Part shown: piece after piece, positions 2,441 to 23,281 of the stretch
Numbering within the stretch: the stretch's first letter is position 1
Layout of the letters: each line of letters begins with the position of its first letter
Virus record (IMG/VR): IMGVR_UViG_3300034375_006990
Location: 1-24,736 of that record
Length of the DNA stretch: 24,736 nt
Reading direction: 5' to 3' (one strand)
Source of the DNA: a virus
The notes under the pieces: generated by a model
The model's input: only the letters and a program-made list of their open reading frames with translations
Database searches by the model: none
Told to the model about the DNA's origin: nothing
Made by a program: the position numbers and the translations under genes

Positions 2441-3340
2441 ATGATACAGACTGGATTTGATTCTAGAGTTAAAGTTCAGCAAATTATTGAGAGCCAACTT
2501 CCAAGTTTTATATTGGAAGAATCTCCAAATGCGTCTGAGTTTTTAAAGCAATATTATATTTCTCAGGAATATCAAGGCGGATCAATAGATATTGCCGAAA
2601 ATTTAGATCAATATCTTAAGATAGAAAATCTTACACCAGAAGTAGTAGTAGACAGCTCTATATTATCTTCCAGCATCTCATCTTCTGATAGTGAAATACA
2701 AGTATCAAGTACTAAAGGATTTCCAAAAAAATATGGATTATTGAAGATTGATGAAGAGATTATTACGTATACGGGAATAAGTGGAAATACTTTTACTGGA
2801 TGTATTCGTGGATTCAGTGGAATTACTAGTTACCACCAAGATTTAAATCAAGAAGAACTAACTTTTACATCATCTTCTGCAGCATCGCACGCTTCAAATT
2901 CTAGTGTCCAAAATCTAAGTTCACTATTTTTAAAAGAGTTCTATCAAAAATTAAAGTATACCATTGCACCAGGTCTTGAGAAAACTGACTTTGCATCAGA
3001 ATTAAATGTAGGAAATTTTTTAAAGGAATTAAATTCTTTTTACAAAGCAAAAGGCACTGATGAATCGTTTAGAATTTTATTTAATGTTTTGTATAATGAA
3101 AATCCAAAGATTGTAAATTTAGAAGAATTTTTAATCAAACCTTCATCATCAAAATATGAGAGACAAGAAGTAGTAATTGTAGAAGTAATATCTGGTGATA
3201 ACCCCCTTAATCTTCTGGGGCAAACCGTAAAAAAATCAACAGATGATAGTACTAGTGCTTCAGTTTCATCCATAGAACCTTTTAATAGAAATTCTGAACA
3301 ATATTATAAATTATATTTGTTTGTGGGGAACAATGAATTT
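2441..3340 (+). other. gp7-like (tail protein I-like) helical domain of the giant protein
   Basis: Residues 1-70 and 150-300 resemble the C-terminal part of T4 gp7 as I recall it. FYKAKGTDESFRILFNVLYN (200-219) pairs with FYSTKGIEASYKFLFKVLYN, and LLGQTVKKST (258-267) with LVGQTIYTAT. IIESQLPSFILEESPNASEF near residue 15 resembles the T4 segment before it. This part of gp7 joins gp6 in the wedge core bundle and corresponds to tail protein I of simpler phages. In T4 it lies at the C-terminus; here it opens the protein. Confidence 0.7.
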
Positions 3341-6300
3341 TCCGCTATTGAAGGAAATTTCTCAATCACTCCAAATACAAAAACTGTTAGTGCATCATCA
3401 GTATCTTCGTCAGTAATTACAGTCGATTCCACTTTAGGATTTCCACAGAGTGGCACATTAGTATCTGGAAACAATACTATCACTTACACCGACAAATCAA
3501 TTAATCAATTTTTAGGATGTTCTGGCATTAATGAGAATATATCAAAAAATTCGTTAGTCAGAAATACAGACACCTACTTTGGTTATGAAGATGGTGATAC
3601 TACCAAAAAAGTAGAATTTAGAATTCTGGGAGTATTATCCGATTTTGTACCAACATCGGAGGATATTAATGTTTCTGAAGGTGATATTATAACAATTAAA
3701 AATGTTGGCGATTTAATCAAAAACCCACAAAACAAAACCTATAAAGAAGTATTTGCAAATTCGTGGATATATAACACTTCTGCTAGGTACAAGGTATCTG
3801 AAATAGGATCAAATTATGTATTGGGAAGTAGCATTGACAGATCCAGTTTAAAGGTTGGAGACAGAGTAGAACTCTTAGAAAGAGATACAGAAATTTTAGC
3901 ACCTGAGAACAACAACCCACATATTAGTCAAATTATTTCAGATAATACTGTAAAGATAGAGGGATCTTTTACAGTTGATTCCAGCAAAGTATATGATTTA
4001 AGAAGAAAGACTAACTTTGCTAGTAGTTCTGGTGTTTCTATTGAATATGGAAATGATGCGATTACTTCAGACATACAAAATCTCTATACAGATGGTGAAG
4101 ATTTCTCATATGTCGCATCCAATTCTTTACCATCATCAAACATTTCAGGATTTTCCTATCCATACAGATACACAATAACGAGCAACATTAAAAGTGCTGG
4201 AATATCTTCGGAAAGTAATCTTTTTGATGCAGATTCAGATGGTAATTATAGTACAATAGGTTTTTCAGATTCTGCACCATTCTTAACAGGGGACAGGATT
4301 TATTATCAACCAAATTCAACACCACTTGTTGGTTTGGATACTGGTAGCTATTATGTTGAAGTACTTCCATCAAATAATAAAAGAATTCGTTTATATTCTT
4401 CGAGTTCATTTATAGGTGGATCTTCTTTCTTAAAATTTAGTGTTCCAGATTCTGGACTTGATCTTCAAACGTTTACATTATATTCACAAAGATCATCTGA
4501 AATTGGTATTCAGAAAACACTTAAAAAATTCCCATTGAAGTCAAAAATAAGAAATCCTGGAAAAGAAACAATTCCTGGAACAACAGGAATGTTGATCAAT
4601 GGTGTGGAAATTGGAAACTATAAGTCTTTAGATAAAGTTTACTATGGTCCTTTAAAATCAATAGATGTATTGAGTGGTGGAGAAAATTATGATGTTATTA
4701 ATTTGCCAACAATATCAATTTCTTCAGGATCTTCCAGTGCATTAGCACAACCAGTAATAAGTGGATCCATTAAAGAAGTTTATATAGATTCTCAAAATTA
4801 TGATATAGACAAAGTTGTTTCAGTTGATATCTCTGGTGGAAATGGTTCTGGTGCAATATTAGAACCAGTAGTCATTAAAAGATCTAGAGACATAACTTTT
4901 GATGGAAGAACGTTAGAAACTGGTGGTGGAATTAGTACAACAGGAAATAGAATTACATTTTTAAATGACCACAACTTAAACAATGGAGAGCAAGTAGTAT
5001 ATAACTCAAATGGAAATTTTCAAGTTGTAATTGGAATAGGAACGTCCACATTAATAAACAATGCGTCTTATTTTGTAAAAGTTGAAAATAATAATACCGT
5101 TAGATTGTTTGAATCATTGACAGATTATAATTCAGATTCAAATTCTGTTGGATTTTCTACTGGAACTCAAGGGATACACAAGTTCAGCACTGTAACTCCA
5201 AAAAATACAATATCTTCTATAAAGATAATTGATGGTGGTAGTGGATATACTAACAGAAAATTAATTGTTAAAGGTTCCGGAATATCTACAATTAATAATT
5301 CGGTTAATTTTGCAAATCATGGATTTAATACTGGAGATCTTGTAACCTATGATTATGAAACTAGTGGTATATCTGGTCTGTCAACATCAAATCAATATTA
5401 CATTTTAAAAGTTGATGATGATTCTTTTAGAATTTGTAATGCTGGAGTTGGTGGAACTAGTACATCAGACTTTAATAGAGAAAACTATGCAAAATTCTCT
5501 GATACTGGATCTGGATATCAATACTTTGCTTATCCTTCAATTTCCGTTACCGTAAAATATAATCCAGTTGGTTTTGGAACCAGTACTCAAACTTACCAAG
5601 AGATCGTTACAACACCAATTATCAGAGGATCTATAGAGAATGTTTATCTCTATGAAAATGGAACTGGGTATGGTTCTACGATTTTAAATTATGAGGATAC
5701 TCCATCATTAACAATTAAAAATGGTAAAAATTCTTCATTGATACCAAATGTTGTTAATGGTCAAATTGTTTCTGTAAACATACAATATGGTGGAGAAGAA
5801 TACTACTCTCTTCCAGATTTAATTGTAAATGATTTGAGTGGATCTGGATCTGGTGCAAAACTTAGACCAGTCATCACTAATGGAAAGATAACTGATGTTA
5901 TTGTAGTAAGTACTGGTATTGGTTATTCAAGTACTGACACCTCCATTTTGGTAAAAGCGGCTGGAATCAACGCAGTTCTGTCTCCAAAAATTAGAGATCT
6001 TACAGTAAATAATAATTATAAATTTGGTAATGAAATATTATTAGAATCTAACAATAAGTTAAAGTACACAGTATCTGGTTATTTTGACGGTTTAAGAAAT
6101 TCATTCGGAGAAAGTTCTGGAAATATATCGGGAATTATTGGATGGGCATATGATGGGAATCCAATTTATGGTCCTTTTGGATACTCGGATCCTGAAAACA
6201 TTTCATCGTCAATAGCAAGGTTATCATCAGGGTATACTTTAGATACATCATATGTTGATAGACCCTCTGGTTTTACATCTGGATTTTTTGTAGAGGACTA

Positions 6301-9300
6301 CAGATTTACAAATTCTGGGAATCTGGATCAATATAATGGAAGATTTGGTAAGACTCCAGAATTTCCAAACGGCGTTTATGCATATTTTGCATCAATTAAT
6401 GCATCTGGTACTCCAACATTCCCATACTTTATTGGAAATTCATACAAATCTCAGACATTAGATGAGAATACAACATTAGATCAAACATTTGATTTTACTA
6501 ATACTAATTTACTAAGAAATACTTTACCATATAAAGTTTCAGACAATAATGCGGGATATGATTTTATTTCGGAAATAGATGACATCACTCGTCAGAAAAT
6601 TGTAGTTGAGTCTGTTACACGAGGTGGTGTGGAAAGTTTTGTTATAAAAAATGCGGGAACGGGATATAAAGTTAATGATATTCTCAATTTTGATAACTCT
6701 GGTACAGATGGTGGCGGAGCTTACTCGTCCATTTCTTTTGTTGAAGGTAAGGAGATAACAGAAATAAACACAACAGTGAGTACATATGAAGATTCAGTAT
6801 TCACTTGGGTTGATGGATCTAAGATAAAAGTAACAATTTCTCCAAACCACACTTTAAATGATAATGATTATGTTTCTATTTCTGGTTTCTCTACAAGTTT
6901 ATCCTCACTAAATGGAGTTCATAAAATAAATGTAGATGTTAAGAATTCTGTTGCTATTTCTTCAATTCCATCTACTGCAAGTATTGGTGGAACTGAAATT
7001 TATGTCTCAAGAATTCCTGAAAATATTTCAGTGGGAAGTAGCATTGGAATAGGATCTGAAACTTTAAAGGTTTTGGGTCTATTTAAGAATCAGAATATCA
7101 TAAGAGTTGAGAGGGGGTTGACAGGAACATCACACAATGAAAATTCTTCCATATCATTCCTCCCAGATTCATTTACGATTGATAGTCAAGTTGATTTCTT
7201 TGATTCAAAAGTAAACGATAAAGTTTTCTTCAATCCAACAGAATCTGTCGGATTTGGAACAACACCAGGTCAGTATCACTTATCAACCTTTGATTTTGGT
7301 GATAAATCTGGAGTTACTAGAGGGATACCTAGTAAGTCAATATACCTTGAAAACCATCCTTTTAAAAATAACCAGAGGATCACATACACCACTAATGGAA
7401 CTAATATTTTAATTTCCACCGACGGTGTAAACACAAGCAATTTGCCATCCGATCTTTTTGTAATTAATAAAGGATCCAATCTAATTGGATTAAAAACTAG
7501 TTTAAATTCTAGTGAATTATTCTATCATAGTGGTGGTGATGATGATGATTTATATTCTTTTGAGTCATCTTACAGTCAAATAACTGGAAAAGTTGAAAAA
7601 ATAAAAGCAACTGTTTCAGTATCAACTTCACATCAGATGTCAGTAAATGATGTTGTAGAACTTACTGTAAATCCAAATCTTTCGGTAGGAATAGGTACGT
7701 CAACGTCGGTAAGAGTTTCTAGAAATAGTGTGACCGAAAAATTATTGATAAATCCAATTGGATTTAGTTCTACAGGAGTTAATACTAATACAAATACAAT
7801 TACGGTTAATAACCACCAATTAGATACTGGAGACAAAATTCATTATTCTTCAGATTCAGTAGCATCTGGATTATCAACAGGCAGTTACTATGTGTTTAAA
7901 ATTGATTCTAATACCGTAAAACTTTGTGAAACGTATAAAGATTCTTTATCAATACCTCCAGTTTCTGTAAGTATTGCAAGCACCGGCGGTGAATCACAAT
8001 TTTTATCTTTAATTAATCCAAAGATTGAAACAGTAAAAAATAATAATTTAGTATTTGATTTATCAGACTCTTCTCTGTCAGGGTATGACTTTAAAATTTA
8101 TAGAGATAATCAATTTAAAGATGAATTTGTCTCTACTGCATCTACATCATCATTTAATTTGGGATATGGAACAACCATTGGAACAGTTGGAGCTGCATTG
8201 ACAATTTCTTATGACTCCAGTTTACCAAAAACTCTTTACTATAATATAGAAAAGTCTGGATTTATAAGCACTGCCGATACTGATGTAAAAAATTACTCTG
8301 AAATAGTACTAGTTGATAGTTTATATAATGGAAAATATAATGTTGTAGCGGTAGCAGCAACTACATTTGATATTGTTTTAGAAGAAGTTCCAGAGAATCT
8401 ATCATACACTAAAAATAACTGCGATGTATTAAAGTATATTACGTCATCTACAACATCTACTGGAGGAATAGGGAAACTAAACTTAATATCTAATGGATAT
8501 GGTTATAAGAACTTACCAATTGTAGATGGAATTTTGACACAAAATGGAAAGGATTCCTACGTTCTTGCAAAATCTAATAGTGTAGGTAATGTAAATCAGA
8601 TTAGAATTAAAAACGAAGAATTTGAATATTCATTTGATCCCACATTAAATCCAACTGCATTTGTTTCTCCTAATATTATTTTAAATAATTCAAACACTTT
8701 AGAATCTATTACCGTCAATAACGGTGGAAGAGGATACACAGAATCTCCAGATGTTGTAATTGTTAATTCATCTACGGGAGAAAAAATTGATTCTGGATTA
8801 TTAACCGCAAACTTGGTTGGCGAATCTGTAAATTCTATAACAATAGAAGAAAATCCAAAAGGACTTCCCGAAGACTCTGTTAGATTATTTACTATTAATA
8901 ATACAAATGGTATAAGTGTTCAAAGAGTAGAATCCAATTCTACTGGCATATTTACTTGCTCTATAACAGTACCACCTCTTGGTTTTTCCACATATCCATT
9001 TGCTGCTGGAGATCAAGTTTTTGTTGAGGGAATACAAAAATTTAGTTCAAGTGGTTCTGGTTTTAATTCTGAAGATTATGGATATGTTTTATTCTCTGTG
9101 GATTCTTATATAGAATCATCTCCATATCATAAGGTTGTTTTTGATCTTTCTAGTGTATCTAATGGCGGATTAACAACTAATACTGGAATTGCTAAAACCA
9201 TCCAGGATGGATTTGCGACTTTAATACACGAAGATGAATATCCAACGTTTGATATAACACAAAGAAGATTGAATTTCAGTATTGGTGAGCAGATTGTCTC

Positions 9301-12300
9301 TAATAACATTGTAAGAGATTTGTTTGTTTCGGATTATGATGGAACTATTCTTAAGGTATTTGGTACTTACGATCTAAGTTTAAATGAAGTTATAATTGGT
9401 AAAGAATCAGGAACAGTAGCAACTGTCAATGAAATTGGCATTAACTCTGGAACATTTAAAATTGGATATTCAATACCACAAAATATTGGATGGATTGACG
9501 AAGTTGGAAAACTAAATTATGACAATCAAGTTACTCCAGATAATGACTACTATCAAAATCTTTCATATTCAATACAGAGCACTAAGGAATATAGTGAAAT
9601 CCAATCCAAAATTAAACCATTACTACACACTAGTGGATTAAAGGATTTTGCAGATACTGGTATTACCTCAACAACAGACGCATCAGATCTTGTAGGAACT
9701 GATGAAACAATAGTTGTTCGTGATTTTATAGATGATCTTAGAGTAGATACAATTTACGATTTTGATTTGGTTCAGGATATTGACATTGATTCGGCAACAG
9801 GAAATTCAAAATATCTAAAATTAAAAAATACAAAACTTACAGATTATATCAAAAATATTGGTAATGATGTTTTATCCATTGATGATATAAGTGATCGTTT
9901 CTCAAATTCAGAAAGTAACCCTAGTGAATTTTTTAACATCATTAAACTCGACTCTTCAAACTCTTATGAAAACTTCTTAATTCGTGTCACAAGTTCGGAT
10001 AACAGTGAAATTCAATTCAGCGAAGTTGTAATTTTAAATGATGGAACTAATAGTTATCTTGTAGAAAAGGGTAGCATTGTAAATGTGGGAGTTGATACAA
10101 CTTTACACTCATTGAATGAGCAGTATGGTGAATTTTCTGTAGTAGTTGATGATCTTGGTGATAGTTATCTTAGGTTTATTCCTGTAGATCCATATGATAC
10201 AGATTATGATTTAAAACTTGTAAGAAATACCTTTACTTCGTCCTCTGTCGGCGTCGGAACAACATCAGTTGGTTTCTCAAACTTGGTAAGTTCTACAGGA
10301 ATAGCGACCTCTGGAATAACAACAAACATAGCCTCATTTAGCACTGCAGATTTTGAGTCTCTATATGCAAATGTTCAAGTAGTTAATTCCGCAACAAATG
10401 ATATGAATTTTGTTGAGGTATATGTTTCTGCGGCAGGAACAGATACTTATATTTCGGAATACTATTTTGATTCAGATCAAAATCTGAACTTCTCAAATAA
10501 TTTTATAGGATCATTTGGAGCAAATATTTCTTCTGGAGTTCTAACATTAGATTACACCAATACTTCTTCAGATGATAATTTACTGAGAGCAAAAATTGTT
10601 GGTTTTGGAACAACATCTACTGGTGTTGGAATTCCTTATAGATTTAAATTGGATAGACAACCAACAGGATCTGAAAGAACAGTCATCTATCAATCCGATT
10701 TTACTGTCGGTGTTGGAACAACTTCAATAGTTTCTGTAGATAAAACCTTATTCAATTCTATAAAATCACTAGTAGAAGTGAGCATTGGATCTACAAAAGC
10801 AGTTCATCAAGTAATGATGATACAAGATGATAATGATGTTTACGTACAACAATCAGCTCTTCTTAGTGTTAGTTCAAATTCCACATTTGATGATGTATTG
10901 GGAATAGGTACTTTTGGTGGAAATAATAGTGGATCAAACCTAGAACTCAACTTCTACCCAGATTCGGAGTTTTCTGCGGAAAATATTGTAATATCCGCAT
11001 TTAGTCAGTGTTTTTATAATGATTTAGATACAGAAAATACACCACCAACTCTTAATTATGGAAATATTCAGGAATCTGTAGATCTCAAGTTTTACAACGC
11101 TATAAATGGTGACAGAATTAATAGATCTAATTTTAATTTAACATCTGGTGGAACTCAAATATTTGTAAAATCATTCGATCCACAGGATACTTCAGTATTA
11201 AACTCCTCTACAGGAACTTTTACAGTACAAAATCACTTCTTTAAAAATGGTGAAGAGTTAATTTACACTCCAAAATCATCAATAATTGGAATTGCAACAA
11301 CTGCAATGACCTATACTGATGGCAGTGTTACAGATCTACTTCCCTCTACAGTTTTTGCAATTGTAAATAACCTAAATGCTGATGTTTTCCAAATATCAAC
11401 AGTAAGAAGTGGAACAGCAGTAACATTCACTGATCTTGGCGGTGGAAATAATCACCAATTTGAAATGTCTAAAAAGAATGAGAAATCCATTATCGTCATT
11501 GACAACTTAATTCAACATCCATTAATTTTTACAAACATTTCTCACACTTTATCTGAATCTATTGAAACATCTACCACTACTTTTAGTTTGAGTGGAATAT
11601 CCTCCATTAATCCACTCGATATTCTTAAAATAGATGATGAATTTGTCAGAGTCAATAATGTTGGTTTGGGGACAACAAGTGTAGGTCCAATCACTAATTC
11701 CGGATCGTTTAATTTGGTAGAAACTGATAGAGGATTTGTCGGAACGTCATCAACATCACACACATCTTCAACACAAGTCGATATTTATAGAGGATCTTTT
11801 AATATTGTAGAAAATGAAATACATTTCACAGAATCTCCTAGAGGAAATCCTCAAATTACAAAAACAGAGTCTAATTTAGATTTTGATACGTCAACTTTTA
11901 GTGGGCGTGTATTCCTGAGATCTGATTATACCACCAATAAAATATATGATGACTTGTCCGAACAGTTTAACGGCATCGGAAGAACTTTCACATTACAAGT
12001 TGGTGGTGCAAATACAACTGGAATTGGATCTATTGGGGGTAGTGGAATTGTTCTCATAAATGGAATATTCCAACAACCAACCACAACAAATAATCCAAGT
12101 GGCAATTATAAGATATTAGAAAATACTGTTGTTGGTGTTAGCACCATAGAATTTTCTGGTATTACAAAACCAGAAACAGATCCTCTGGAGTATGTTATTT
12201 CAGATTATGATGTTAATCAAAATGAGACTCCAAGAGGTGGAATTATTGTTTCACTAGGATCAACACCAGGTCTTGGTTTTGCACCACTTGTAGGTGCTTC

Positions 12301-14047
12301 TGTAACTGCCATAGTGGGTGCAGGAGGATCTATTTCTGGAATAACAACTGCACTTCCTGGAGGTTCTTATGGTTCTGGTTATAATGGATTAACATCTATT
12401 GGAGTAACTGTTTATGATCCAACGCAAGATGCTGGTGGTGATCCAGCAATAATAACGGCAACTGTTGGAGCAGGAGGAACCCTTTCATTCTCAATTGTTG
12501 GATCTGGTGGAACTGGATATAATAATCCCAAAGTACATGTTTCTGAACCAACTTATGAAAATCTTTCTGTTATTGGTGTTTCTAGACTTGGTATTGGCAA
12601 TACAACTCAGACGGGTATTGGTCTTTCTGTAAGTTTGAAAGTTGGTTCAGTTGGTATAGCATCAACATATTTTGGAGTGACTGAATTTGATATAACCCGA
12701 AATGGTTATTCCTTTAGAAGAGGTGATGTTTTTAAACCTGTCGGACTTGTTACAGACTCTACACTTTCCTCACCAATTTCAGAATTTGAACTAACCGTTA
12801 TTGAAACTTATTCTGATAAATTTGCGGCATGGGAATTTGGTGAACTAGATTTTATAGATTCTATTTCCGATTACCAAGATGGTGTAAGAACAACATTCCC
12901 ACTATTTTATAACGGGGAACTTCTAAGTTTTGAGAAAGATCTTGATTCCAGAATAAGTCTGATAAACTGCTTATTAATCTTTATAAACGGAGTACTCCAA
13001 GAACCAGGTATTTCTTATGAATTTGATGGTGGAACATCGTTTAAATTTACAACCGCACCAAAAGTAGAAGATAAAATCTCAATTTATTTTTACAAAGGCA
13101 CAAATTCTGATGTCCAACTTATAACTGGAGTCTCAGAAACTCTGAAAAAAGGTGACATTGTTCAGGTTCTTAAGAGTAATGATTATCCAGGAATATTGGC
13201 TCAAGACAAGAGAACAATATATGATTTATCATTCTCCGATAAATTTGAAACGAATTTGTATTCTGGTCCTGGAATTAGCGCAGAGTATAGACCACTCAGT
13301 TGGACTAAACAAAAGGTTGACAAAAAGATTAATGGAGAATTAGTATCAAAATCTAGAGACTCAATTGAATCTCTTGTATTCCCAACAGCAAATATAATAA
13401 GTGGTCTGTCCACAAGTGATACTCAGGTATTCGTAGATACTGTTGAATTGTTTAGATATGAGAATCCAGATTTGTCATCATTCGATTGTTTGATTGTTAA
13501 TGGAATATCAACCAGTGCTAATGGATCTGTAGAATTAGTATCTAACTTTACAACAATACAAGGTGATTCTGGATCTATAGTTGGAATAGCATCAACTACC
13601 ACACCAAATTTGGCAATAGAATTTACTCTAGATTCTTTAGTTTCTTCCAATTTACAAGTTGGATATCCTATTTACATATTTGATACTTTAGTTGGAAATG
13701 GCGTAACTTCTATTATAAGTTCAGATAGTGAAGTCATTGGAATAGGAACTACTTATTTGGATAATGTTTATCATGTTGAGGCAATAAACAACTCAACTGG
13801 AATTATTACTTGTCGTGTTCATTCCGCTTCATCTCTCTTAGGAATTAATACAACTGGAACTTCTAGTTATCCAGTTGGTAGATATTCATGGGGTAGATTG
13901 TCAAATACATCTGGTTTGGTTAGATCTTCTAATCCAATATCTATTGGTGTAACTGGAGGATTAGTTTCGGGTTTATCAACATATCCAACTATTCAGAGGA
14001 GGAATGTTGGTATAAGGTCTACTGGCGCTCTACCTAAACTGTTATAA
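2441..14047 (+). CDS. Giant gp7-type baseplate wedge / virion structural protein (3868 residues)
   Basis: One uninterrupted 3868-residue frame fills the slot held by gp7 (1032 residues in T4) between gp6 and gp8. Order along the protein: a gp7/tail-protein-I-like helical region (1-300) with a small beta module inserted; FANSWIYNTSARY at 438-450, a string I recall from cyanophage virion proteins; a nested array of GGxGY and NHxxxxGDxVxY modules (~600-1185); a YHYH-like domain (~1205-1345); more modules (1500-1850, 2000-2180); YQNLSYSIQS at 2371-2380; three tandem ~100-130-residue repeats (~2508-2865); two INGxxQ modules (3206-3212 and 3515-3521); and TNLYSGPGI...RPLSWTKQ (3604-3624) near the end. 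It is almost free of Cys (about ten) and Trp (about seven), with no signal peptide or membrane segment. Ser, Thr, Gly, Asn and Asp dominate. Likely role: the wedge core through its N-terminus, with a large peripheral extension toward fibres or the cell surface. A generic 'virion structural protein' label would also fit; the gp7 link rests on the first 300 residues. Confidence 0.85.
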   Translation: MIQTGFDSRVKVQQIIESQLPSFILEESPNASEFLKQYYISQEYQGGSIDIAENLDQYLKIENLTPEVVVDSSILSSSISSSDSEIQVSSTKGFPKKYGLLKIDEEIITYTGISGNTFTGCIRGFSGITSYHQDLNQEELTFTSSSAASHASNSSVQNLSSLFLKEFYQKLKYTIAPGLEKTDFASELNVGNFLKELNSFYKAKGTDESFRILFNVLYNENPKIVNLEEFLIKPSSSKYERQEVVIVEVISGDNPLNLLGQTVKKSTDDSTSASVSSIEPFNRNSEQYYKLYLFVGNNEFSAIEGNFSITPNTKTVSASSVSSSVITVDSTLGFPQSGTLVSGNNTITYTDKSINQFLGCSGINENISKNSLVRNTDTYFGYEDGDTTKKVEFRILGVLSDFVPTSEDINVSEGDIITIKNVGDLIKNPQNKTYKEVFANSWIYNTSARYKVSEIGSNYVLGSSIDRSSLKVGDRVELLERDTEILAPENNNPHISQIISDNTVKIEGSFTVDSSKVYDLRRKTNFASSSGVSIEYGNDAITSDIQNLYTDGEDFSYVASNSLPSSNISGFSYPYRYTITSNIKSAGISSESNLFDADSDGNYSTIGFSDSAPFLTGDRIYYQPNSTPLVGLDTGSYYVEVLPSNNKRIRLYSSSSFIGGSSFLKFSVPDSGLDLQTFTLYSQRSSEIGIQKTLKKFPLKSKIRNPGKETIPGTTGMLINGVEIGNYKSLDKVYYGPLKSIDVLSGGENYDVINLPTISISSGSSSALAQPVISGSIKEVYIDSQNYDIDKVVSVDISGGNGSGAILEPVVIKRSRDITFDGRTLETGGGISTTGNRITFLNDHNLNNGEQVVYNSNGNFQVVIGIGTSTLINNASYFVKVENNNTVRLFESLTDYNSDSNSVGFSTGTQGIHKFSTVTPKNTISSIKIIDGGSGYTNRKLIVKGSGISTINNSVNFANHGFNTGDLVTYDYETSGISGLSTSNQYYILKVDDDSFRICNAGVGGTSTSDFNRENYAKFSDTGSGYQYFAYPSISVTVKYNPVGFGTSTQTYQEIVTTPIIRGSIENVYLYENGTGYGSTILNYEDTPSLTIKNGKNSSLIPNVVNGQIVSVNIQYGGEEYYSLPDLIVNDLSGSGSGAKLRPVITNGKITDVIVVSTGIGYSSTDTSILVKAAGINAVLSPKIRDLTVNNNYKFGNEILLESNNKLKYTVSGYFDGLRNSFGESSGNISGIIGWAYDGNPIYGPFGYSDPENISSSIARLSSGYTLDTSYVDRPSGFTSGFFVEDYRFTNSGNLDQYNGRFGKTPEFPNGVYAYFASINASGTPTFPYFIGNSYKSQTLDENTTLDQTFDFTNTNLLRNTLPYKVSDNNAGYDFISEIDDITRQKIVVESVTRGGVESFVIKNAGTGYKVNDILNFDNSGTDGGGAYSSISFVEGKEITEINTTVSTYEDSVFTWVDGSKIKVTISPNHTLNDNDYVSISGFSTSLSSLNGVHKINVDVKNSVAISSIPSTASIGGTEIYVSRIPENISVGSSIGIGSETLKVLGLFKNQNIIRVERGLTGTSHNENSSISFLPDSFTIDSQVDFFDSKVNDKVFFNPTESVGFGTTPGQYHLSTFDFGDKSGVTRGIPSKSIYLENHPFKNNQRITYTTNGTNILISTDGVNTSNLPSDLFVINKGSNLIGLKTSLNSSELFYHSGGDDDDLYSFESSYSQITGKVEKIKATVSVSTSHQMSVNDVVELTVNPNLSVGIGTSTSVRVSRNSVTEKLLINPIGFSSTGVNTNTNTITVNNHQLDTGDKIHYSSDSVASGLSTGSYYVFKIDSNTVKLCETYKDSLSIPPVSVSIASTGGESQFLSLINPKIETVKNNNLVFDLSDSSLSGYDFKIYRDNQFKDEFVSTASTSSFNLGYGTTIGTVGAALTISYDSSLPKTLYYNIEKSGFISTADTDVKNYSEIVLVDSLYNGKYNVVAVAATTFDIVLEEVPENLSYTKNNCDVLKYITSSTTSTGGIGKLNLISNGYGYKNLPIVDGILTQNGKDSYVLAKSNSVGNVNQIRIKNEEFEYSFDPTLNPTAFVSPNIILNNSNTLESITVNNGGRGYTESPDVVIVNSSTGEKIDSGLLTANLVGESVNSITIEENPKGLPEDSVRLFTINNTNGISVQRVESNSTGIFTCSITVPPLGFSTYPFAAGDQVFVEGIQKFSSSGSGFNSEDYGYVLFSVDSYIESSPYHKVVFDLSSVSNGGLTTNTGIAKTIQDGFATLIHEDEYPTFDITQRRLNFSIGEQIVSNNIVRDLFVSDYDGTILKVFGTYDLSLNEVIIGKESGTVATVNEIGINSGTFKIGYSIPQNIGWIDEVGKLNYDNQVTPDNDYYQNLSYSIQSTKEYSEIQSKIKPLLHTSGLKDFADTGITSTTDASDLVGTDETIVVRDFIDDLRVDTIYDFDLVQDIDIDSATGNSKYLKLKNTKLTDYIKNIGNDVLSIDDISDRFSNSESNPSEFFNIIKLDSSNSYENFLIRVTSSDNSEIQFSEVVILNDGTNSYLVEKGSIVNVGVDTTLHSLNEQYGEFSVVVDDLGDSYLRFIPVDPYDTDYDLKLVRNTFTSSSVGVGTTSVGFSNLVSSTGIATSGITTNIASFSTADFESLYANVQVVNSATNDMNFVEVYVSAAGTDTYISEYYFDSDQNLNFSNNFIGSFGANISSGVLTLDYTNTSSDDNLLRAKIVGFGTTSTGVGIPYRFKLDRQPTGSERTVIYQSDFTVGVGTTSIVSVDKTLFNSIKSLVEVSIGSTKAVHQVMMIQDDNDVYVQQSALLSVSSNSTFDDVLGIGTFGGNNSGSNLELNFYPDSEFSAENIVISAFSQCFYNDLDTENTPPTLNYGNIQESVDLKFYNAINGDRINRSNFNLTSGGTQIFVKSFDPQDTSVLNSSTGTFTVQNHFFKNGEELIYTPKSSIIGIATTAMTYTDGSVTDLLPSTVFAIVNNLNADVFQISTVRSGTAVTFTDLGGGNNHQFEMSKKNEKSIIVIDNLIQHPLIFTNISHTLSESIETSTTTFSLSGISSINPLDILKIDDEFVRVNNVGLGTTSVGPITNSGSFNLVETDRGFVGTSSTSHTSSTQVDIYRGSFNIVENEIHFTESPRGNPQITKTESNLDFDTSTFSGRVFLRSDYTTNKIYDDLSEQFNGIGRTFTLQVGGANTTGIGSIGGSGIVLINGIFQQPTTTNNPSGNYKILENTVVGVSTIEFSGITKPETDPLEYVISDYDVNQNETPRGGIIVSLGSTPGLGFAPLVGASVTAIVGAGGSISGITTALPGGSYGSGYNGLTSIGVTVYDPTQDAGGDPAIITATVGAGGTLSFSIVGSGGTGYNNPKVHVSEPTYENLSVIGVSRLGIGNTTQTGIGLSVSLKVGSVGIASTYFGVTEFDITRNGYSFRRGDVFKPVGLVTDSTLSSPISEFELTVIETYSDKFAAWEFGELDFIDSISDYQDGVRTTFPLFYNGELLSFEKDLDSRISLINCLLIFINGVLQEPGISYEFDGGTSFKFTTAPKVEDKISIYFYKGTNSDVQLITGVSETLKKGDIVQVLKSNDYPGILAQDKRTIYDLSFSDKFETNLYSGPGISAEYRPLSWTKQKVDKKINGELVSKSRDSIESLVFPTANIISGLSTSDTQVFVDTVELFRYENPDLSSFDCLIVNGISTSANGSVELVSNFTTIQGDSGSIVGIASTTTPNLAIEFTLDSLVSSNLQVGYPIYIFDTLVGNGVTSIISSDSEVIGIGTTYLDNVYHVEAINNSTGIITCRVHSASSLLGINTTGTSSYPVGRYSWGRLSNTSGLVRSSNPISIGVTGGLVSGLSTYPTIQRRNVGIRSTGALPKLL
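4657..5990 (+). repeat. Nested array of GGxGY and NHxxxxGDxVxY modules
   Basis: Within the giant protein (about residues 740-1183), strands of the type SIxxxxGGxxY followed by GSGA and P recur: LSGGENYD, IDGGSGYT, YENGTGYG, YGGEEYYS, VSTGIGYS. Two units of a second type interrupt the series: DHNLNNGEQVVYN near 4970 and NHGFNTGDLVTYD near 5316, each followed by a YFVKV or YYILKV strand. The second type recurs at about 4240, 7340, 7790 and 11215. Such patterns usually mean short beta-hairpin or beta-sandwich units in phage fibres; function is not known. Confidence 0.65.
6050..6480 (+). other. Degenerate YHYH-like domain in the giant protein
   Basis: GWAYDGNPIYGPFGY (about residues 1234-1248) matches the DGxPIYGPYGY hallmark of YHYH-domain proteins. 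LDQYNGRFGKTPEFPNGVYA (1295-1314) matches their second block, which in free-standing proteins reads roughly LDxCNGR...PxGxYHYH. Here the histidines are gone (VYAYF at 1312-1316) and the Cys is Tyr. Order and spacing of the two blocks are kept, so the fold is probably retained without the metal-type residues. Confidence 0.7.
9953..11040 (+). repeat. Three tandem diverged beta modules in the giant protein
   Basis: Starts near residues 2508 (YENFLIRVTSS), 2638 (FESLYANVQVV) and 2771 (FNSIKSLVEVS). Each runs: hydrophobic strand, a short xEVxIxxDGTxxY-like strand (SEVVILNDGTNSYLVEKG, VEVYVSAAGTDTYISEY, HQVMMIQDDNDVYVQQS), a GSFGANISSG-like strand, an LxFxP/LxYTN strand, and a closing GVGTTS-type turn. 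The GSFGANISSG form resembles a module I recall from many marine phage virion proteins (GTFDADISSG). Confidence 0.6.
12840..13330 (+). other. gp10-like segment near the C-terminus of the giant protein
   Basis: LLIFINGVLQEPGISYEF (3511-3528), then FKFTTAP, KISIYFYKG and TNLYSGPGI (3604-3612), follow the same order as FNGILQE, ILHFDS, INITWFNN and NLYVSQGPGV in T4 gp10 as I recall it. The INGxxQ unit alone is a common phage structural module and occurs a second time at 3206-3212, so shared modules are as likely as true orthology. Confidence 0.4.
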
Positions 14048-15601: not shown

Positions 15602-18600
15602 ATGGCACAAAAAACAGACTTAAATATCAACCCTTATTTTGATGATTTTGATTCGGGTAAAAACTTTTATAAAGTCTTATTTAAGCCAGGATATCCAGTT
15701 CAGGCACGAGAACTGACTACTTTACAATCAATACTTCAGAACCAAATTGAATCTTTTGGAAGTTATACTTTTAAGGAAGGCACAGTTGTAATTCCGGGAA
15801 ATGTTGCATATGATGGTCAGTTTTATGCCGTAAAATTAAATTCCACCACATTTGGTGTTGACATATCATTATACATCAATGAGTTTATAGGTAAAAAAAT
15901 AACAGGTCAAAATTCAGGAACTACTGCAACTATCCAATATGTTGCTCTACCTGATGGTGACTCAGTTGAAGAAGTTACAATTTATGTAAAATACGTAGAT
16001 TCTAATAATAATTTTGTTTTTGATCAATTTGAAGATGGAGAGTCTTTATACGCGGACGAAAATGTAGTTTATGGAAATACTAATATCAGTGCCGGAACTC
16101 CTTTTGCATCTTTAATCAATAACAATGCAACTTCTATTGGATCAGCAGCGTCCATAGGAGAAGGAGTTTATTTCATTAGAGGATTCTTTGCAAATGTTTC
16201 AAAACAAACAGTAATATTAGACTATTATACAAATACCCCATCATATAGAGTTGGTTTATCTGTACAAGAATTGTTAATTGGTGCAAAGGATGATTCTTCC
16301 TTATATGATAATGCTAAGGGATTTACCAATTTTGCAGCACCTGGAGCAGACAGACTTCAATTAAATTTAACATTAACAAAAAAATTAATCACAGATACTA
16401 ACGATACAGACTTTATAGAACTTCTTAGAATAGAAGATGGAAGAATAAAAAAAATTGAGAATAAAACTCAACTCAATAGACTTGGCGATTATATTGCGGA
16501 AAGAACATATGAAGAATCTGGTCACTATGCATTAGATAATTTTAAAGTTGCATTGCATAATTCCCTCAACGATAAATTGGGAAATGATGGATTATTTTTT
16601 GAAACTCAATCAACAGAACAATTAAACACACCATCAGATGATTTAATGTGTGTAAAAGTTTCTCCAGGAGAAGCTTATGTTGGTGGTTATAATGTAGAAA
16701 AAGTTTCTACTACTATTATAGATGTAGAAAAACCGAGAGATACTGCAACCGTATCAACTGCAAATATTCCCTTTGAGATGGGAAATCTTTTGAGAGTTAA
16801 TAATGTATCTGGCGCACCAAAACAAAAAGAATCTATTGACTTATTCAATCAATTTGCGGGCGGAGGAACACAAATTGGTGATGCAAGAGTCTATACATTT
16901 AATTTAACAGGATCTTCCTATCAAGACGAATCAACAAATTGGGATTTGTATCTATACGACATTCAAACATATACATCTTTAACATTAAATACACCGGTAA
17001 TACCTTTAGGATTAATAACGTCATCATACATTAAAGGTAAGAGTAGTGGAGCTAGTGGTTATGCAGTTTCTTCTGGATCTGGCAGCACTGTAAACATTAG
17101 ACAAACTTCTGGGACTTTTTCTGTTGGGGAACAACTTACCATCAATGGTATTGATGTCTCTGCCACAGTTTCATCAGTTATAGTATACGGAACAAGAGAT
17201 ATTAAATCAGTTTCTCAATCTGGTGTATCTGGTTTCCCAACATTTACAGCAGATTCTCTCTTAGATTCTATAAGTTTACCAAATGGTGTTGTTGCTGGAA
17301 CTATCAGTGGTGGAAATACATTAGTAAGTCCAGGTAAAGTTTTTACTGGTGTTAAAGTTGGCGACATTATTAGATATCAAACATCATCTGGAGATGAAAC
17401 ATTTAATAGAGTAACTGCAAATAATACCACGTCTCTCACATTAGCGTCTTCTACGACTGTTTCTGGCGTTCATGCAGGATCTGTTTCTAATGGAACATAT
17501 TCCTCAATCAAACTCGGAATACCAGTTTTAAGAAATCAAGAAAGAGCATATTTGTATGCAGAACTTCCAGATTCCAACATTGAGTCTGTTAATCTTTCAG
17601 GTTCTACTTTAAAAATATCCGAACAAATTACAGGAGAAACCACAGATTCTTCTGGCGTATTAACTTTTAATCTTTCGTCTATTAGTGGTATCACTAGTGC
17701 ATTCTTTGATCCATTTGATGAAGAAAGATATTCTGTTCACTATACAGGTGGTGGAATTGGCACTGTAACATCAGATGCTTTTTCAATAAGTTCAAATACC
17801 GTAACTATTAATGGATTGACACCATCACAATCAAGCATTGTTGTTAATACGTCTCTGACAAAAAATGGTATTCAAAGTAAAATTAAAGATTACACGAGAA
17901 GTGCTGCTCTAGATGTAATATATTCAAAATATCCACAGTCTGGCGTAGGTGTTAATACTTCTGTCAATGATGGATTAACATATAATGCAAATTATGGTTT
18001 ACGAGTTCAAGATGAAGAAATTTCATTAAATTGGCCAGACGTAGTAAAAGTTCTTGCTATTCTTGAGTCTTTAGATGAAAATTCTCCAACCTTAGATCAA
18101 ATTCAATTTTTCGACACATCTGTTGTAAGTAATGCTATTATCGGAGAAAATATCATCAGTTCTTCTAGTAATGCAGTTGCAAGAGTTGTTGCTAAACCAT
18201 CTGCACTTGTTTTATCTGTAGTTTATTTAAATCAAGATAGATTTATTTCTGGGGAATCAGTTACATTAGAGGAATCAAATAATACGGTACAAATTCAGTC
18301 GTTAACTAAGGGATCATATAAAGATATAACATCTTCCTTTATTTTAGATAAGGGTCAAAAAGAACAATATTATGATTACTCTAGATTAATTAGAAGTTCT
18401 TCCACACCAACACCATCAAGAAGATTAAAAATTATATTTGATCATTATACAATACCTGCATCAGACAATGGAGATGTTTATACTGTATTGAGTTATGGTG
18501 ATGACAGATTTGCGGAGGATATCCCCGAAATAGGACCAAGAAGAGTAAGAGCTTCGGATACCCTCGATTTTAGACCAAGAGTATCTCAATTTACTGTAAC

Positions 18601-21600
18601 TAATAAATCGCCATTTGACTTCGACTCAAGAAGTTTTGGTACGCTACCAAAACTCATATTAAAACCAAAAGAGACCTCTCTGATTGGATATAATTATTAT
18701 TTACCTAGAATTGATAAGGTTTATTTGGACACCTTTGGCAATTTTATTGTTCAAAAGGGAATTTCTGGCATAAATCCAAAAGCTCCATCAAATAATAATC
18801 CCAATGGATTAATGGAACTGGGAACTATTACACTTCCAGCATATCTTTATGATCCCAATGACGCCAATATATCACTCGTTGATAATAGAAGATATACAAT
18901 GAGAGATATTGGTAAACTTGAAGATAGAATTGAAAATTTGGAAAGAGTTACTTCACTTTCTCTCTTGGAAGTTAATACCCAAACACTTCAGGTCCAAGAT
19001 TCGCAAGGAAATAACAGATTTAAAACTGGATTCTTTGTAGATGACTTTAAAAATAATTCTCTTATTAATCTGGATGTTTCCTCAATACAAGTCAACACTG
19101 ATTCGCAAGAATTAACAACAATTGTAAGTAGTAATACTCTTAAAGGACAAATTGCACCATCTACAGATATCACGGATGAAAATTTAGACCTTTCAACTAA
19201 CTTTAGTTTGTTAGATTCTAATGTCCAAAAAACTGGAAATGCTATTACACTCAAGTACAATAGTGTTGGATGGATTGAACAACCCCTCGCAACTAAAGTA
19301 GAAAATGTTAATCCATTCCATGTAGTTTCTTACAATGGATTTGTTAAGTTGTCTCCATCTAGTGATAGTTGGGTGAGAACTATAAGAATTCCTGGGACCA
19401 ATTCTTCTATTACAAGAAACGTTCCAGATCCAAATCGTCAGGGATCAACTGCCACAACAGTTACGTCAAATGATGTCTTAATTTCTTCTGGTAACGAACA
19501 ATATATGCGTTCCAGAAATACTCAATTTTCTGCAAATAATTTAAAACCATTAACTAAATTCTATCAATTCTTTGATGGAAATGGGAGTGTGGATTTTATA
19601 CCAAAACTTCTTGAAATTTCCAATGATTCCACATTAGTAAACTATGGATCTGTCGGATCTTTTGAGGTTGGAGAAACTGTAATTGGTTACAGTGATGGAA
19701 ATGAATTGATCAGATTTAGATTGTGTTCTGGAAATCATAAAGAGGGTTCTTTTAACTCACCATCAAAGACTTTCAATATAAACCCATATGTAAAAGCAGA
19801 AAATCTTTCTGCAGCATATAGTCAGTCTTCCAAAGTCTTAAATATTGACACATTTGCACTTTCCGAAGAAGCACAGGGTAAGTATTATGGATATGTCAAA
19901 GCAGGAACAAAATTAGTTGGACAAACTAGTGGGGCAATTGCATATGTTAAGGATCTTCGTCTTATTAGTGATAATTATGGCGATCTTTTAGGTTCTTTCT
20001 TCTTAAGAAATCCACACACAGTTCCATCTCCTGCTGTTAGAATTACAACGGGAACAAAAACTTACAAATTAACCAATAGTTCAACTAATGCTGCTCCCAT
20101 TCCTGGAAGCCAATTACAATCAACTGCAGAAACATCATATAAATCTGAAGGTAGATTTGAGGTTCGTCAACGTCAAACTACCACAGTAACTTCTAACTTC
20201 TATGATCCACTTGCACAATCATTTAGTGTCGGTGGAACAATTGATGCACCAGATTTAAATGGACAAAATAGTGATGCTAATGGAGCATTTTTGACTGCTG
20301 TAGATCTATTCTTTGCTAACAAACCATCTGGAAATGATCCTGTAAGAATTGAAGTTAGAACGGTCGAGTTAGGAACTCCAACTAGAACAATCATTGGAAA
20401 TCCAGTTACTCTAACACCACCTGAAGTAAACATTTCATCAAACGGTACAACTGCAACAACAGTAACATTTGATTATCCAATTTTCTTAGCACCTGGACAA
20501 GAATATGCGATTGTTGCTGTTGCAGAAACCACTGATGAATATGAATTGTGGATAGCAGAGATGGGAGAAAGAACTGTAAATACACAATCTCTCCCAGATG
20601 CAGAAGCAGTCATATATTCCAAACAGTTTGCCCTTGGAAGTTTGTTTAAATCTCAAAATGGGTCTATTTGGACTGCTAATCAGTATCAAGATCTTAAATT
20701 TAAATTATATAAGGCAAGTTTTACATCAACTACTGGAACAGCGTTCTTCTATAATCCAACTTTGGATGAAAGTAATGGGTATGTTGAAACATTAAATAAT
20801 AGTCCCATTACAACTTTACCAAAAACATTAACTCTTGGAATCACAACGGTCACTGATGCTGGAATTATTGGAATTTTAACAACTGGTAGGAAAATTTCTG
20901 GTTCGAATGGATTTGGATATGGATATGTTGTAGGATCTGGAAGTGCAGTTTCTAATGTTGCAATAACTGATGGTGGATCAAACTATCCAACAGGAACTTT
21001 TGCAAACTTAGAAACCACAAATATAGTTGGTAGTGGATCTGGTCTCAGATTAAGCATCACTGCTTCTGGTGGTGTCGTTACTGGTGTTGCAGCAACAACT
21101 GCAACAGGAAATGGATATCAAGTTGGTGATGTTGTTGGAATTGTTACAACTCTTGGAAGAGATGTAAGATTTACTATTGAGTCTATCAGTGGATTAGATA
21201 CACTTTATCTCTCCAATGTACAAGGTGAAAAAGGAGCATCTAAGTCATTCCAAGTTGGTGCAGCAGTTAGTTACTACAATGATGCAGGAACTATTGTATC
21301 TCTTGCAACAACTACAATTACTGATAGGACATCAGAAGGTGCAAATCTGAACTCTGGAAATTATCTGAGAGTAAGTCATTTTGATCATGGAATGTATTCT
21401 TCCACGAACAAGGTTGTTCTTTCTGGAATTGAACCAAATGTCCCATCCACAACACTATCTTCATCTCTCAATATAGATGAGACAGCAACTATTAGTGTTG
21501 CAAGTACATCAAACTTTGCCACATTTGAGGGTCAAACTGTTTCAGGTTCTTATCTTGGATATGTCAAAATTGGAGATGAAATAATCTCATATAATGATGT

Positions 21601-22696: not shown

Positions 22697-22890
22697 TAAG
22701 AGTTGACGGACATAAAAATCTCTACAGGGATGAAAAAAGTGGTGCCATAGTAAACTGTGACACCACTTCATATAATCAATATGTAAATTCTCTACAACAT
22801 AAAGAGATGCAAAGACAGGAATTGGATAGAATGAAAAATGATATCGATGAGATAAAATCACTACTAAAGGAATTGCTAAATAAGAAATAA
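22693..22890 (+). CDS. Small conserved cyanophage protein with a coiled-coil tail
   Basis: 65 residues. The N-terminus (VDGHKNLYRDEKSGAIVNCD) resembles small proteins I recall from other T4-like cyanophages near virion genes; no function is known to me. Residues ~36-65 form a charged amphipathic helix with heptad-like spacing (LDRMKNDIDEIKSLLKELL), suggesting coiled-coil oligomerisation. Its ATG overlaps the previous stop as ATGA, and GAGGA at 22675-22679 may be a distal ribosome binding site, so it is probably translationally coupled to the DUF4815 gene. Good coding character and overlap support a real gene. Confidence 0.8.
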   Translation: MIRVDGHKNLYRDEKSGAIVNCDTTSYNQYVNSLQHKEMQRQELDRMKNDIDEIKSLLKELLNKK

Positions 22891-22910
22891 TTTAATGGAC
22901 GTGCTGCAAA

Positions 22911-22918
22911 TATAAATA
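22911..22918 (+). promoter_or_regulatory. T4-type late promoter upstream of the fibre cistron
   Basis: Exact TATAAATA in the 55-nt gap between the small gene and the 111-residue gene, 35 nt before the ATG at 22946. It shares TATAAATATCT with the promoter at 14043. No hairpin terminator is seen in the gap. An AGGA at 22924-22927 is 18 nt from the ATG, too far to be a good ribosome binding site. Confidence 0.7.
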
Positions 22919-22945
22919 TCTGTAGGAATACTTTTAAATCTAATA

Positions 22946-23281
22946 ATGGCAGTTTATGTATCTAACATTGTAATTGAACAGGGATTTGACTTTGACACGT
23001 CTTTCCAGCTGGAAGATACTAGAACAAATTCTCCATTGGATTTAACTGGCACTACTACTTCAGGGCAACTAAGAAAACATTATGGATCTACATCTAAAGT
23101 ATCTTTTGCATCTACAGTGAGTAATGCTGAAGGTGGTGTCATTACAATTTCATTGACTGGTACTCAAACACTTGATTTAAAACCGGGGCGATATGTTTAT
23201 GATGTGAAGATATTAAATTCTGGTAGAGAGTATAAAGCCGTTGAAGGGTCAGCACTAGTACGCGGGGGAGTCACCAGGTAA
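22946..23281 (+). CDS. Small beta-rich virion protein, possible fibre adaptor
   Basis: 111 residues. The sequence alternates strands and turns throughout: FDFDTSFQLEDTRTNSPLDL, then GQLRKHYGSTSKVSF, GVITISLTG, and LKPGRYVYDVKI leading to a VEGSALVRGGVTR end. This order resembles the N-terminal Ig-like domain of receptor-binding-protein adaptors of the BppU type, by pattern only. Similar small proteins precede tail-fibre genes in related cyanophages as I recall. It has its own late promoter, and its TAA stop shares one base with the ATG of the fibre gene (TAATG), so the two are probably made together. No catalytic motif is seen. Confidence 0.75.
   Translation: MAVYVSNIVIEQGFDFDTSFQLEDTRTNSPLDLTGTTTSGQLRKHYGSTSKVSFASTVSNAEGGVITISLTGTQTLDLKPGRYVYDVKILNSGREYKAVEGSALVRGGVTR

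Follow-up and report, generated by a model that had tools for sequence, protein, structure and literature searches.

The window, by which we mean the whole 24,736-base stretch of a virus record, carries genes that, as far as they could be identified, all lie on the plus strand (Table 1), and its longest DNA matches among phage records were to the Synechococcus phages S-SKS1 and S-SRM01. The gene order is gp25, gp6, a giant open reading frame (ORF), gp8 and a VrlC-like ORF. T4 has these genes in the order 6, 7, 8, and since the giant ORF lies between gp6 and gp8 it occupies the place of gene 7. At the far end, from 23281 to 24735, there is an open-ended ORF of 485 residues; its residues 290-439 match phrog_8215 ("baseplate wedge initiator", E 3.2e-9), and the label has probably been carried over to further proteins through a domain they have in common.

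Table 1. Genes of the window and segments of the giant protein (residue numbers are those of the giant protein).
Feature	Residues or length	Position	Strand	Basis
gp25 (sheath initiator / wedge subunit)	133 aa	60..461	+	PF04965 E 2.6e-11; phrog_261 E 2.8e-51
gp6 (wedge subunit)	658 aa	463..2439	+	PF21379 E 1.7e-17; phrog_219 E 1.7e-203
Giant gp7 orthologue (baseplate wedge initiator)	3868 aa	2441..14047	+	phrog_2885 "baseplate wedge subunit" E 0; core homology; gp6 and gp8 flanks
First wedge-core helices (T4 gp7 ~643-690)	1-66	2441..2638	+	hhalign
Small beta domain inserted in the core	67-148	2639..2884	+	without counterpart in T4 or compact relatives (hhalign)
Core helices with FYxxKGTxxSxxxLFxxLY motif (T4 ~724-759)	160-226	2918..3118	+	profile searches and hhalign
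Core strands (up to T4 ~830)	227-320	3119..3400	+	profile search and hhalign
Insert of ~2045 residues interrupting the gp7 core	321-2365	3401..9535	+	flanked by both T4-homologous blocks
YHYH domain within the insert	1225-1321	6113..6403	+	PF14240 E 4e-24, 86.1 bits, cut-off 25
Second T4 gp7 block, YYQ..SYSI.S...HTSG (T4 ~862-892)	2366-2410	9536..9670	+	compact-only profile; broad-profile hhalign
C-terminal extension, ~1458 aa	2411-3868	9671..14044	+	follows the second block
gp8 (wedge subunit)	508 aa	14070..15596	+	PF09215 E 1.8e-13; phrog_438 E 3.2e-152
VrlC-like structural protein	2364 aa	15602..22696	+	S-SRM01 neighbour "virulence-associated VriC"; PF16075 DUF4815 E 1.7e-56

The first-pass annotation had proposed that the N-terminal 300 or so residues of the giant protein, with FYKAKGTDESFRILFNVLYN at 200-219 and LLGQT at 258-262, resemble the C-terminal part of T4 gp7. 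Judged from one sequence alone this resemblance is weak. When residues 1-320 were compared with PDB sequences by phmmer the sole match was T4-type gp7 (E 0.13), and a single-sequence search with the full-length protein gave nothing at E 0.1. The T4 gp7 PHROG (phrog_964) matched residues 193-224 (E 4.5e-4), Pfam PF23786 matched residues 1-320 at E 0.037, under its cut-off, and Tail_P2_I (PF09684, P2 gpI) gave no match to residues 1-320 at E 1, while it matched 4 of 44 compact relatives (best E 2.3e-5).

Profiles confirmed the resemblance. With core profile A1, built from 78 sequences, the only significant matches among the 177,635 PDB sequences searched were gp7 chains (9f4a, E 2.1e-7, and T4 gp7 in 5hx2/5iv5, E 7.3e-5), the next match being an RNA helicase at E 0.092. 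The profile-profile comparison against T4 gp7 suggested by the annotation aligned window residues 10-317 with T4 gp7 643-830 (hhalign, probability 96.8, E 2.3e-10). A first profile of 91 sequences had a profile-profile score of 76.2 against T4 gp7, with maxima of 26.8 for 100 column-shuffled and 29.3 for 50 block-shuffled T4 alignments, and for each of three profiles none of the 150 shuffles scored as high. Residues 1-320 are thus confirmed, at the level of sequence, as homologous to the T4 gp7 wedge core. Structure prediction placed helices at 5-19, 22-27, 31-43, 48-53 and 55-59 of the first segment, with low to middling confidence, and strands at 242-248, 272-283 and 286-294. As T4 gp7 has 1032 residues and the alignment begins at its residue 643, the first ~640 T4 residues have no counterpart before the window core, which starts near residue 10; the T4 gp7 family profile found no other match anywhere in the giant protein beyond the core. 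The large N-terminal domains of T4 gp7 are absent, as had been proposed.

A second gp7 block lies far downstream. The T4 gp7 family profile weakly flagged deeper sites in several cyanophage proteins, with the motif YYQ..SY.I.S...HP.G, where the window has HT in place of HP. A compact-only profile, made from 70 fragments of compact relatives that had themselves been found with a profile including the window family, phiM19 and pf16, matched window residues 2351-2413 (E 8.5e-11) and located the block in 11 of 12 cyanophage proteins, the twelfth (S-SSM4) being cut off in the locus used. On T4-type gp7 this profile gave E 4.1e-4 for RB49 and 0.15 for T4, and since window gp8, the expected negative, gave 0.23, it does not by itself tie T4 in. 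The first profile matched the T4 block weakly (E 0.012). With a broad profile the block was aligned by hhalign to T4 864-910 at E 1.1e-4, a result equalled by none of 100 and none of 50 shuffles, and it is on this broad profile, together with structure, that the link to T4 rests.

The window matches come in the T4 order, at 11-38 (weak, E 0.29), 190-293 and 2351-2413. As both conserved blocks are present in this order, the core contains an insertion of about 2045 residues and is followed by about 1458 more. The first-pass annotation had counted ~3500 residues added behind the core and had read a reversed domain order; the additions are real but are divided between the inside of the core and the region after the second block, and the order is not reversed, only interrupted. 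The YHYH domain of the insert sits in a phage baseplate protein, and the Sf-CH1b record names its matching gene after YHYH. In DSL-LC02 the first ORF stops at the block and a separate ORF of 1432 residues follows, suggesting that the C-terminal part forms an independent module.

Two compact proteins, gp93 of Sinorhizobium phage phiM19 (1007 aa) and gp212 of Pseudomonas phage pf16 (523 aa), bridge the window family and T4. The window N-terminal profile matched them with best-domain E-values of 7.4e-18 and 6.1e-16, the T4 profile with 1e-9 and 1.9e-5, and in both the core stands at the start and the second block near the C-terminal end. Further compact relatives came from 81 viral-contig loci, which were not dereplicated and held 70 complete ORFs of 486-1557 residues between stops. 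With a profile that included the window family, phiM19 and pf16, core and block were found in T4 order in 69 of the 70. In the exception (L190) one in-frame stop parts a core ORF from a block ORF, with frames from near 1404 and 2988, and this two-ORF gene may be a natural split or a sequence error. A profile of the compact relatives had only T4-type gp7 as significant PDB matches (E 4.1e-6 and 6.3e-6), and hhalign related them both to T4 gp7 (probability 96.4) and to the window protein (probability 97.6, E 4e-12). The T4 gp7 PHROG matched 21 of 44 compact relatives (best E 5.5e-9), and Pfam gp7 domain models matched 3 and 2 of the 44, weakly. With ME01 residues 1-330 as query no relatives were found among viral contigs, and pf16 found only one record there, of the same length and 100% identical. 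Four PHROGs that match the gp7 core (phrog_4406, phrog_701, phrog_19630 and phrog_3465) appear to be misclassified, being assigned to the head and packaging category or named "head closure Hc2".

Gene neighbourhood was conserved as well. A gp6-like ORF lay upstream in every locus with at least 600 bases there (77 of 77, 78 of 78 and 81 of 81, the last being the compact loci), and gp8 followed in 67 of the 69 compact loci with room for it but not in the single window-like locus that had room (0 of 1). The gap from core end to block measured 142-882 residues in 69 compact ORFs, 1963-2272 in 41 window-like loci and 1445-2635 in 11 isolates. The other 39 window-like loci either run off the locus end before the block (37) or have an internal stop (L024 and L077), and in L024 the block was located in another ORF. 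Total length varies widely among the cyanophage records examined; from annotated coordinates the orthologues have 1942 (ME01), 2514 (DSL-LC02), 3048 (S-PM2), 3515 (S-RSM4), 3884 (S-CAM9), 3895 (S-SRM01), 4225 (ACG-2014f), 5195 (P-SSM2), 5512 (S-H38), 6376 (Syn33), 6932 (S-SSM4) and 7312 (P-SSM4) residues. In S-SKS1 the orthologue (16337-28724; L001/L002) is broken across frames, with the core in a 710-residue and the block in a 1113-residue frame, and 16337-23334 is without annotation; the same gene is one ORF in S-SRM01 and in the window.

The core of the window protein is also interrupted by a small beta domain. Related stretches occur in the same protein at 320-361 (E 6.3e-6) and in the VrlC-like protein at 1948-2020 (E 3.5e-6), and a BLAST self-comparison of the window proteins at E 0.01 gave no repeat inside the giant protein. 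In the predicted structure residues 69-162 resemble domains of tail-tip proteins (8vjh, Z 9.8, rmsd 1.8, 75 aligned). As the domain is common to the VrlC-like protein and the gp7 core, it seems mobile among structural proteins. At this same position S-H38, Syn33 and S-SSM4 carry a further ~510 residues inside the core.

We then compared predicted structures. The AlphaFold2 model of window residues 1-320 was of modest quality (mean pLDDT 70.4, pTM 0.44). Foldseek ranked the gp7 chain of 9f4a at the top (E 2.6e-4, TM-score 0.15) and T4 gp7 fifth (E 0.051, TM-score 0.14), and with both Foldseek and VIA-align most matches were to beta domain 69-162 (tail-tip and other phage domains and many F1-ATPase barrels); VIA-align had no gp7 chain in its best 50 entries. 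Because the beta domain dominated these matches, a compact relative without it was modelled (L253, 591 residues, alignment A2 of 44 sequences). The mean pLDDT was 77.8, with ten-residue-block means of 46-66 over residues 1-90 and 57-79 over 531-570. The top three of 739 Foldseek matches were gp7 chains (5iv5, E 1.9e-7; 9f4a, 8.2e-7; 5hx2, 2.1e-4), at TM-scores of 0.12 to gp7, and the fourth match had E 0.12. VIA-align paired residues 78-572 with T4 gp7 709-896 in 5iv5 (Z 11.1, 157 aligned) at an rmsd of 13.8, so that the relative placement of the parts is not reproduced in the model. Tighter alignments, of lower Z and in the range of common arrangements, were obtained for residues 97-571 with 294-374 of a P1 baseplate chain (81 residues; Z 5.9, rmsd 2.8, 70 aligned) and for 81-571 with AlgoCIS 812-916 (Z 6.0, rmsd 3.5, 83 aligned); the XM1 gp7-type protein was absent from the best 50 entries. 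As these P1 and AlgoCIS stretches are short, residues of about 100-200 and about 540-571 of the compact model are brought together in a single small domain, and the stretch between them loops out. By extension from this model, which is of a compact relative and not of the window protein, residues 160-320 and 2366-2410 of the giant protein would close one domain around the 2045-residue insert.

Other readings of the locus have to be weighed against these results. Absence of gp7 from T4-like cyanophages, with VrlC in its place, would leave the giant protein as an unrelated structural protein. The available text of a 2020 pelagimyophage paper describes gp7 as absent and apparently substituted by VrlC, and this is in print for both phage groups, read as pelagimyophages and cyanomyophages (PMC7029224). 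A VrlC-like gene does follow gp8 in the window, S-SRM01 and phiM19, and it lies downstream in 15 of the 81 compact loci, many of which end earlier. It is the giant protein, however, that sits in the place of gene 7 and is matched by the T4 gp7 family profile (best domain 193-224, E 1.2e-5), whereas the 2364-residue VrlC-like ORF gave no match to that profile at E 10. In the VrlC-like protein the one significant match of the core profile was to the beta domain that both proteins share (68-130, E 3.5e-6); a further stretch matched weakly, at E 0.05. We therefore find this reading very improbable; VrlC was rejected as gp7, and the VrlC-like ORF is a different gene, in which no gp7 core was detected. 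That the giant ORF encodes a paralogue of gp6, or else a second wedge protein, is extremely improbable. Core domains of the gp6 and gp7 type share a fold, as the available text of PMC6300606 describes for TssF/TssG and gp6/gp7, and chains of AlgoCIS, P1 and phi812, known here by shape match alone, also match the compact model, but the true gp6 lies next door, and the significant PDB sequence matches are gp7 and none is gp6.

A more modest alternative keeps the homology and gives up the split, so that only the N-terminal ~320 residues would derive from gp7 and residues 2366-2410 would be a separate, common phage motif. The E-values of the block against T4 with the first and the compact-only profile fit such a motif, as does the missing HP pair in the window, and a coreless open frame of DSL-LC02 (1433 residues) matches the block profile too, weakly (E 0.0012). 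Against this, none of the 150 shuffles reached the score of the broad profile, the block follows the core in nearly all compact ORFs and cyanophage proteins that were searched, and the structural alignments put both segments in one domain, which makes an unsplit core unlikely. The reading that we prefer, and consider very likely, is that the 3868-residue ORF is the cyanophage orthologue of T4 gp7, in which residues 1-66, 160-320 and 2366-2410 jointly form the wedge core. The homology and the order of the blocks are observed; their folding into one domain is suggested by the model of the compact relative.

The identity of the gene is already in public annotation. Residues 1-320 matched 462 of the 50,697 phage records; the names of 372 matching records begin with Synechococcus, of 61 with Cyanophage, of 24 with Prochlorococcus and of 5 with Marine. 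Among the 60 matches listed, the gene is called "baseplate wedge initiator" in 11, while many orthologue records say hypothetical or virion structural protein. Proteins so named (S-SRM01 QPX48159.1, P-SSM4, ACG-2014f and S-CAM9; phrog_2885) stand in the same place after gp6, with gp8 next where visible; the S-SRM01 orthologue is 65.6% identical to the window over residues 1-316, and the cyanophage orthologues share the second block. The P-SSM4 record (AAX46881.1) names the gene gp7, and its sequence has core and block. The first-pass annotation had presented the giant protein as the missing wedge partner of phages usually described as lacking a recognisable gp7. By homology and position it is gp7, yet it was not missing, since the S-SRM01 and P-SSM4 orthologues were already labelled as baseplate wedge initiators. 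The description does exist in print: in the text available to us Sullivan 2010 (PMC3037559) counted gp7 among the non-cyanophage core genes and expected cyanophages to have divergent copies of host-specific functions, and PMC7029224 reported it absent, whereas cyanophage records and papers already say baseplate wedge initiator. According to the accessible parts of these papers, P-SSM4 gp7 (7312 aa) appeared in a 2021 list as the largest bacterial virus protein (PMC8553790), and S-SZBM1_208 (6619 aa) was found in virions with 71 peptides under the name baseplate wedge initiator, a name shared by S-SZBM1_205 (615 aa, 6 peptides) (PMC9146016). Similarly, the accessible part of PMC10665884 gives, from mass spectrometry, 91 unique virion peptides for S-CREM2 ORF 122, a "baseplate wedge protein, intermediate" that follows a wedge gene and has 1937 aa by its coordinates. 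From their position, name and size we take S-CREM2 ORF 122 and S-SZBM1_208 to be orthologues. A search of open-licence papers, part of them represented by the opening of the abstract, turned up no account of cyanophages in which the gp7 core is split; the split core is a new detail of a gene whose name is not new.

Like T4 gp7 (5IV5 and 5HX2, with 9F4A as the Klebsiella phage KP1 variant), the window protein has FYxxKG helices, strands and second block in the same order. T4, however, has ~640 residues before an uninterrupted core, whereas in the window the core is preceded by next to nothing, broken by the insert and followed by the extension. The compact proteins (phiM19 gp93, pf16 gp212 and phrog_17744) agree with the window in their N-terminal core, downstream block and upstream gp6, and differ in the far shorter gap and in that their alignment has no beta domain between the core helices. 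XM1 gp17 (242 aa) and A-1(L) gp32, compared here through their descriptions in the available text (PMC10457771, PMC10966104), have an N-terminal core bundle without giant insert or tail. With the core at the N-terminus of these two proteins the N-terminal addition of T4 looks like a special case, and as pf16 gp212, phiM19 gp93 and XM1 gp17 all start with the core, the N-terminal domains appear to mark the T4 branch and not the family.

In the structures of XM1, A-1(L), P1 and, through the same papers, T4, described in the parts available of PMC10457771, PMC10966104 and PMC12810830, one chain of the gp7 type and two of the gp6 type together make up a helical bundle and trifurcation unit under a gp25-type sheath initiator. 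By analogy, the wedge core of the window protein would pack with two copies of gp6, for which the window gp6 is the presumed partner, in such a bundle and unit under gp25, with one gp7 copy per wedge and six per baseplate; this stoichiometry and these contacts are carried over from T4, XM1, A-1(L) and P1. In the window protein the small beta domain comes after the first core helices and before those with the KG motif, the ~2045-residue insert parts the strands from the second block, and the ~1458 residues extend beyond the core C-terminally. From the same partial texts, XM1 gp17 binds tail spikes via a loop within the core domain and its C terminus (PMC10457771), and the C-terminal loop of A-1(L) gp32 contacts the long fibre (PMC10966104). 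Since the window additions are at places comparable to these fibre sites, a role in holding fibres and forming the baseplate rim appears likeliest. Most likely these additions project outward, build the peripheral baseplate, hold the tail fibres and relay receptor contact to the wedge. A farther-reaching possibility, which we put forward only tentatively, is that cyanophage gp7 is itself the peripheral baseplate, one chain of 1900-7300 residues replacing T4 gp9-gp12 in fibre holding and contraction signalling, its core split by ~1450 to 2640 residues (11 isolates), in some with ~510 more, and extended by up to ~3650.

In conclusion, the giant protein is, on sequence, a real gp7 orthologue, already so labelled in relatives, with its core in T4 order, split by a giant insert and with a long tail behind. 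It adds one more member to a known family, and its architecture is instructive. By homology this speaks to the printed disagreement over the presence of gp7 in marine T4-like phages, and it places P-SSM4 gp7 in a family of wedge proteins that has grown by inserting and appending thousands of residues round a conserved core. For expression or modelling with gp6 and gp25 the core boundaries are 1-320 plus 2366-2410, while insert and tail are the variable part of the cyanophage baseplate and probably bear the fibres.
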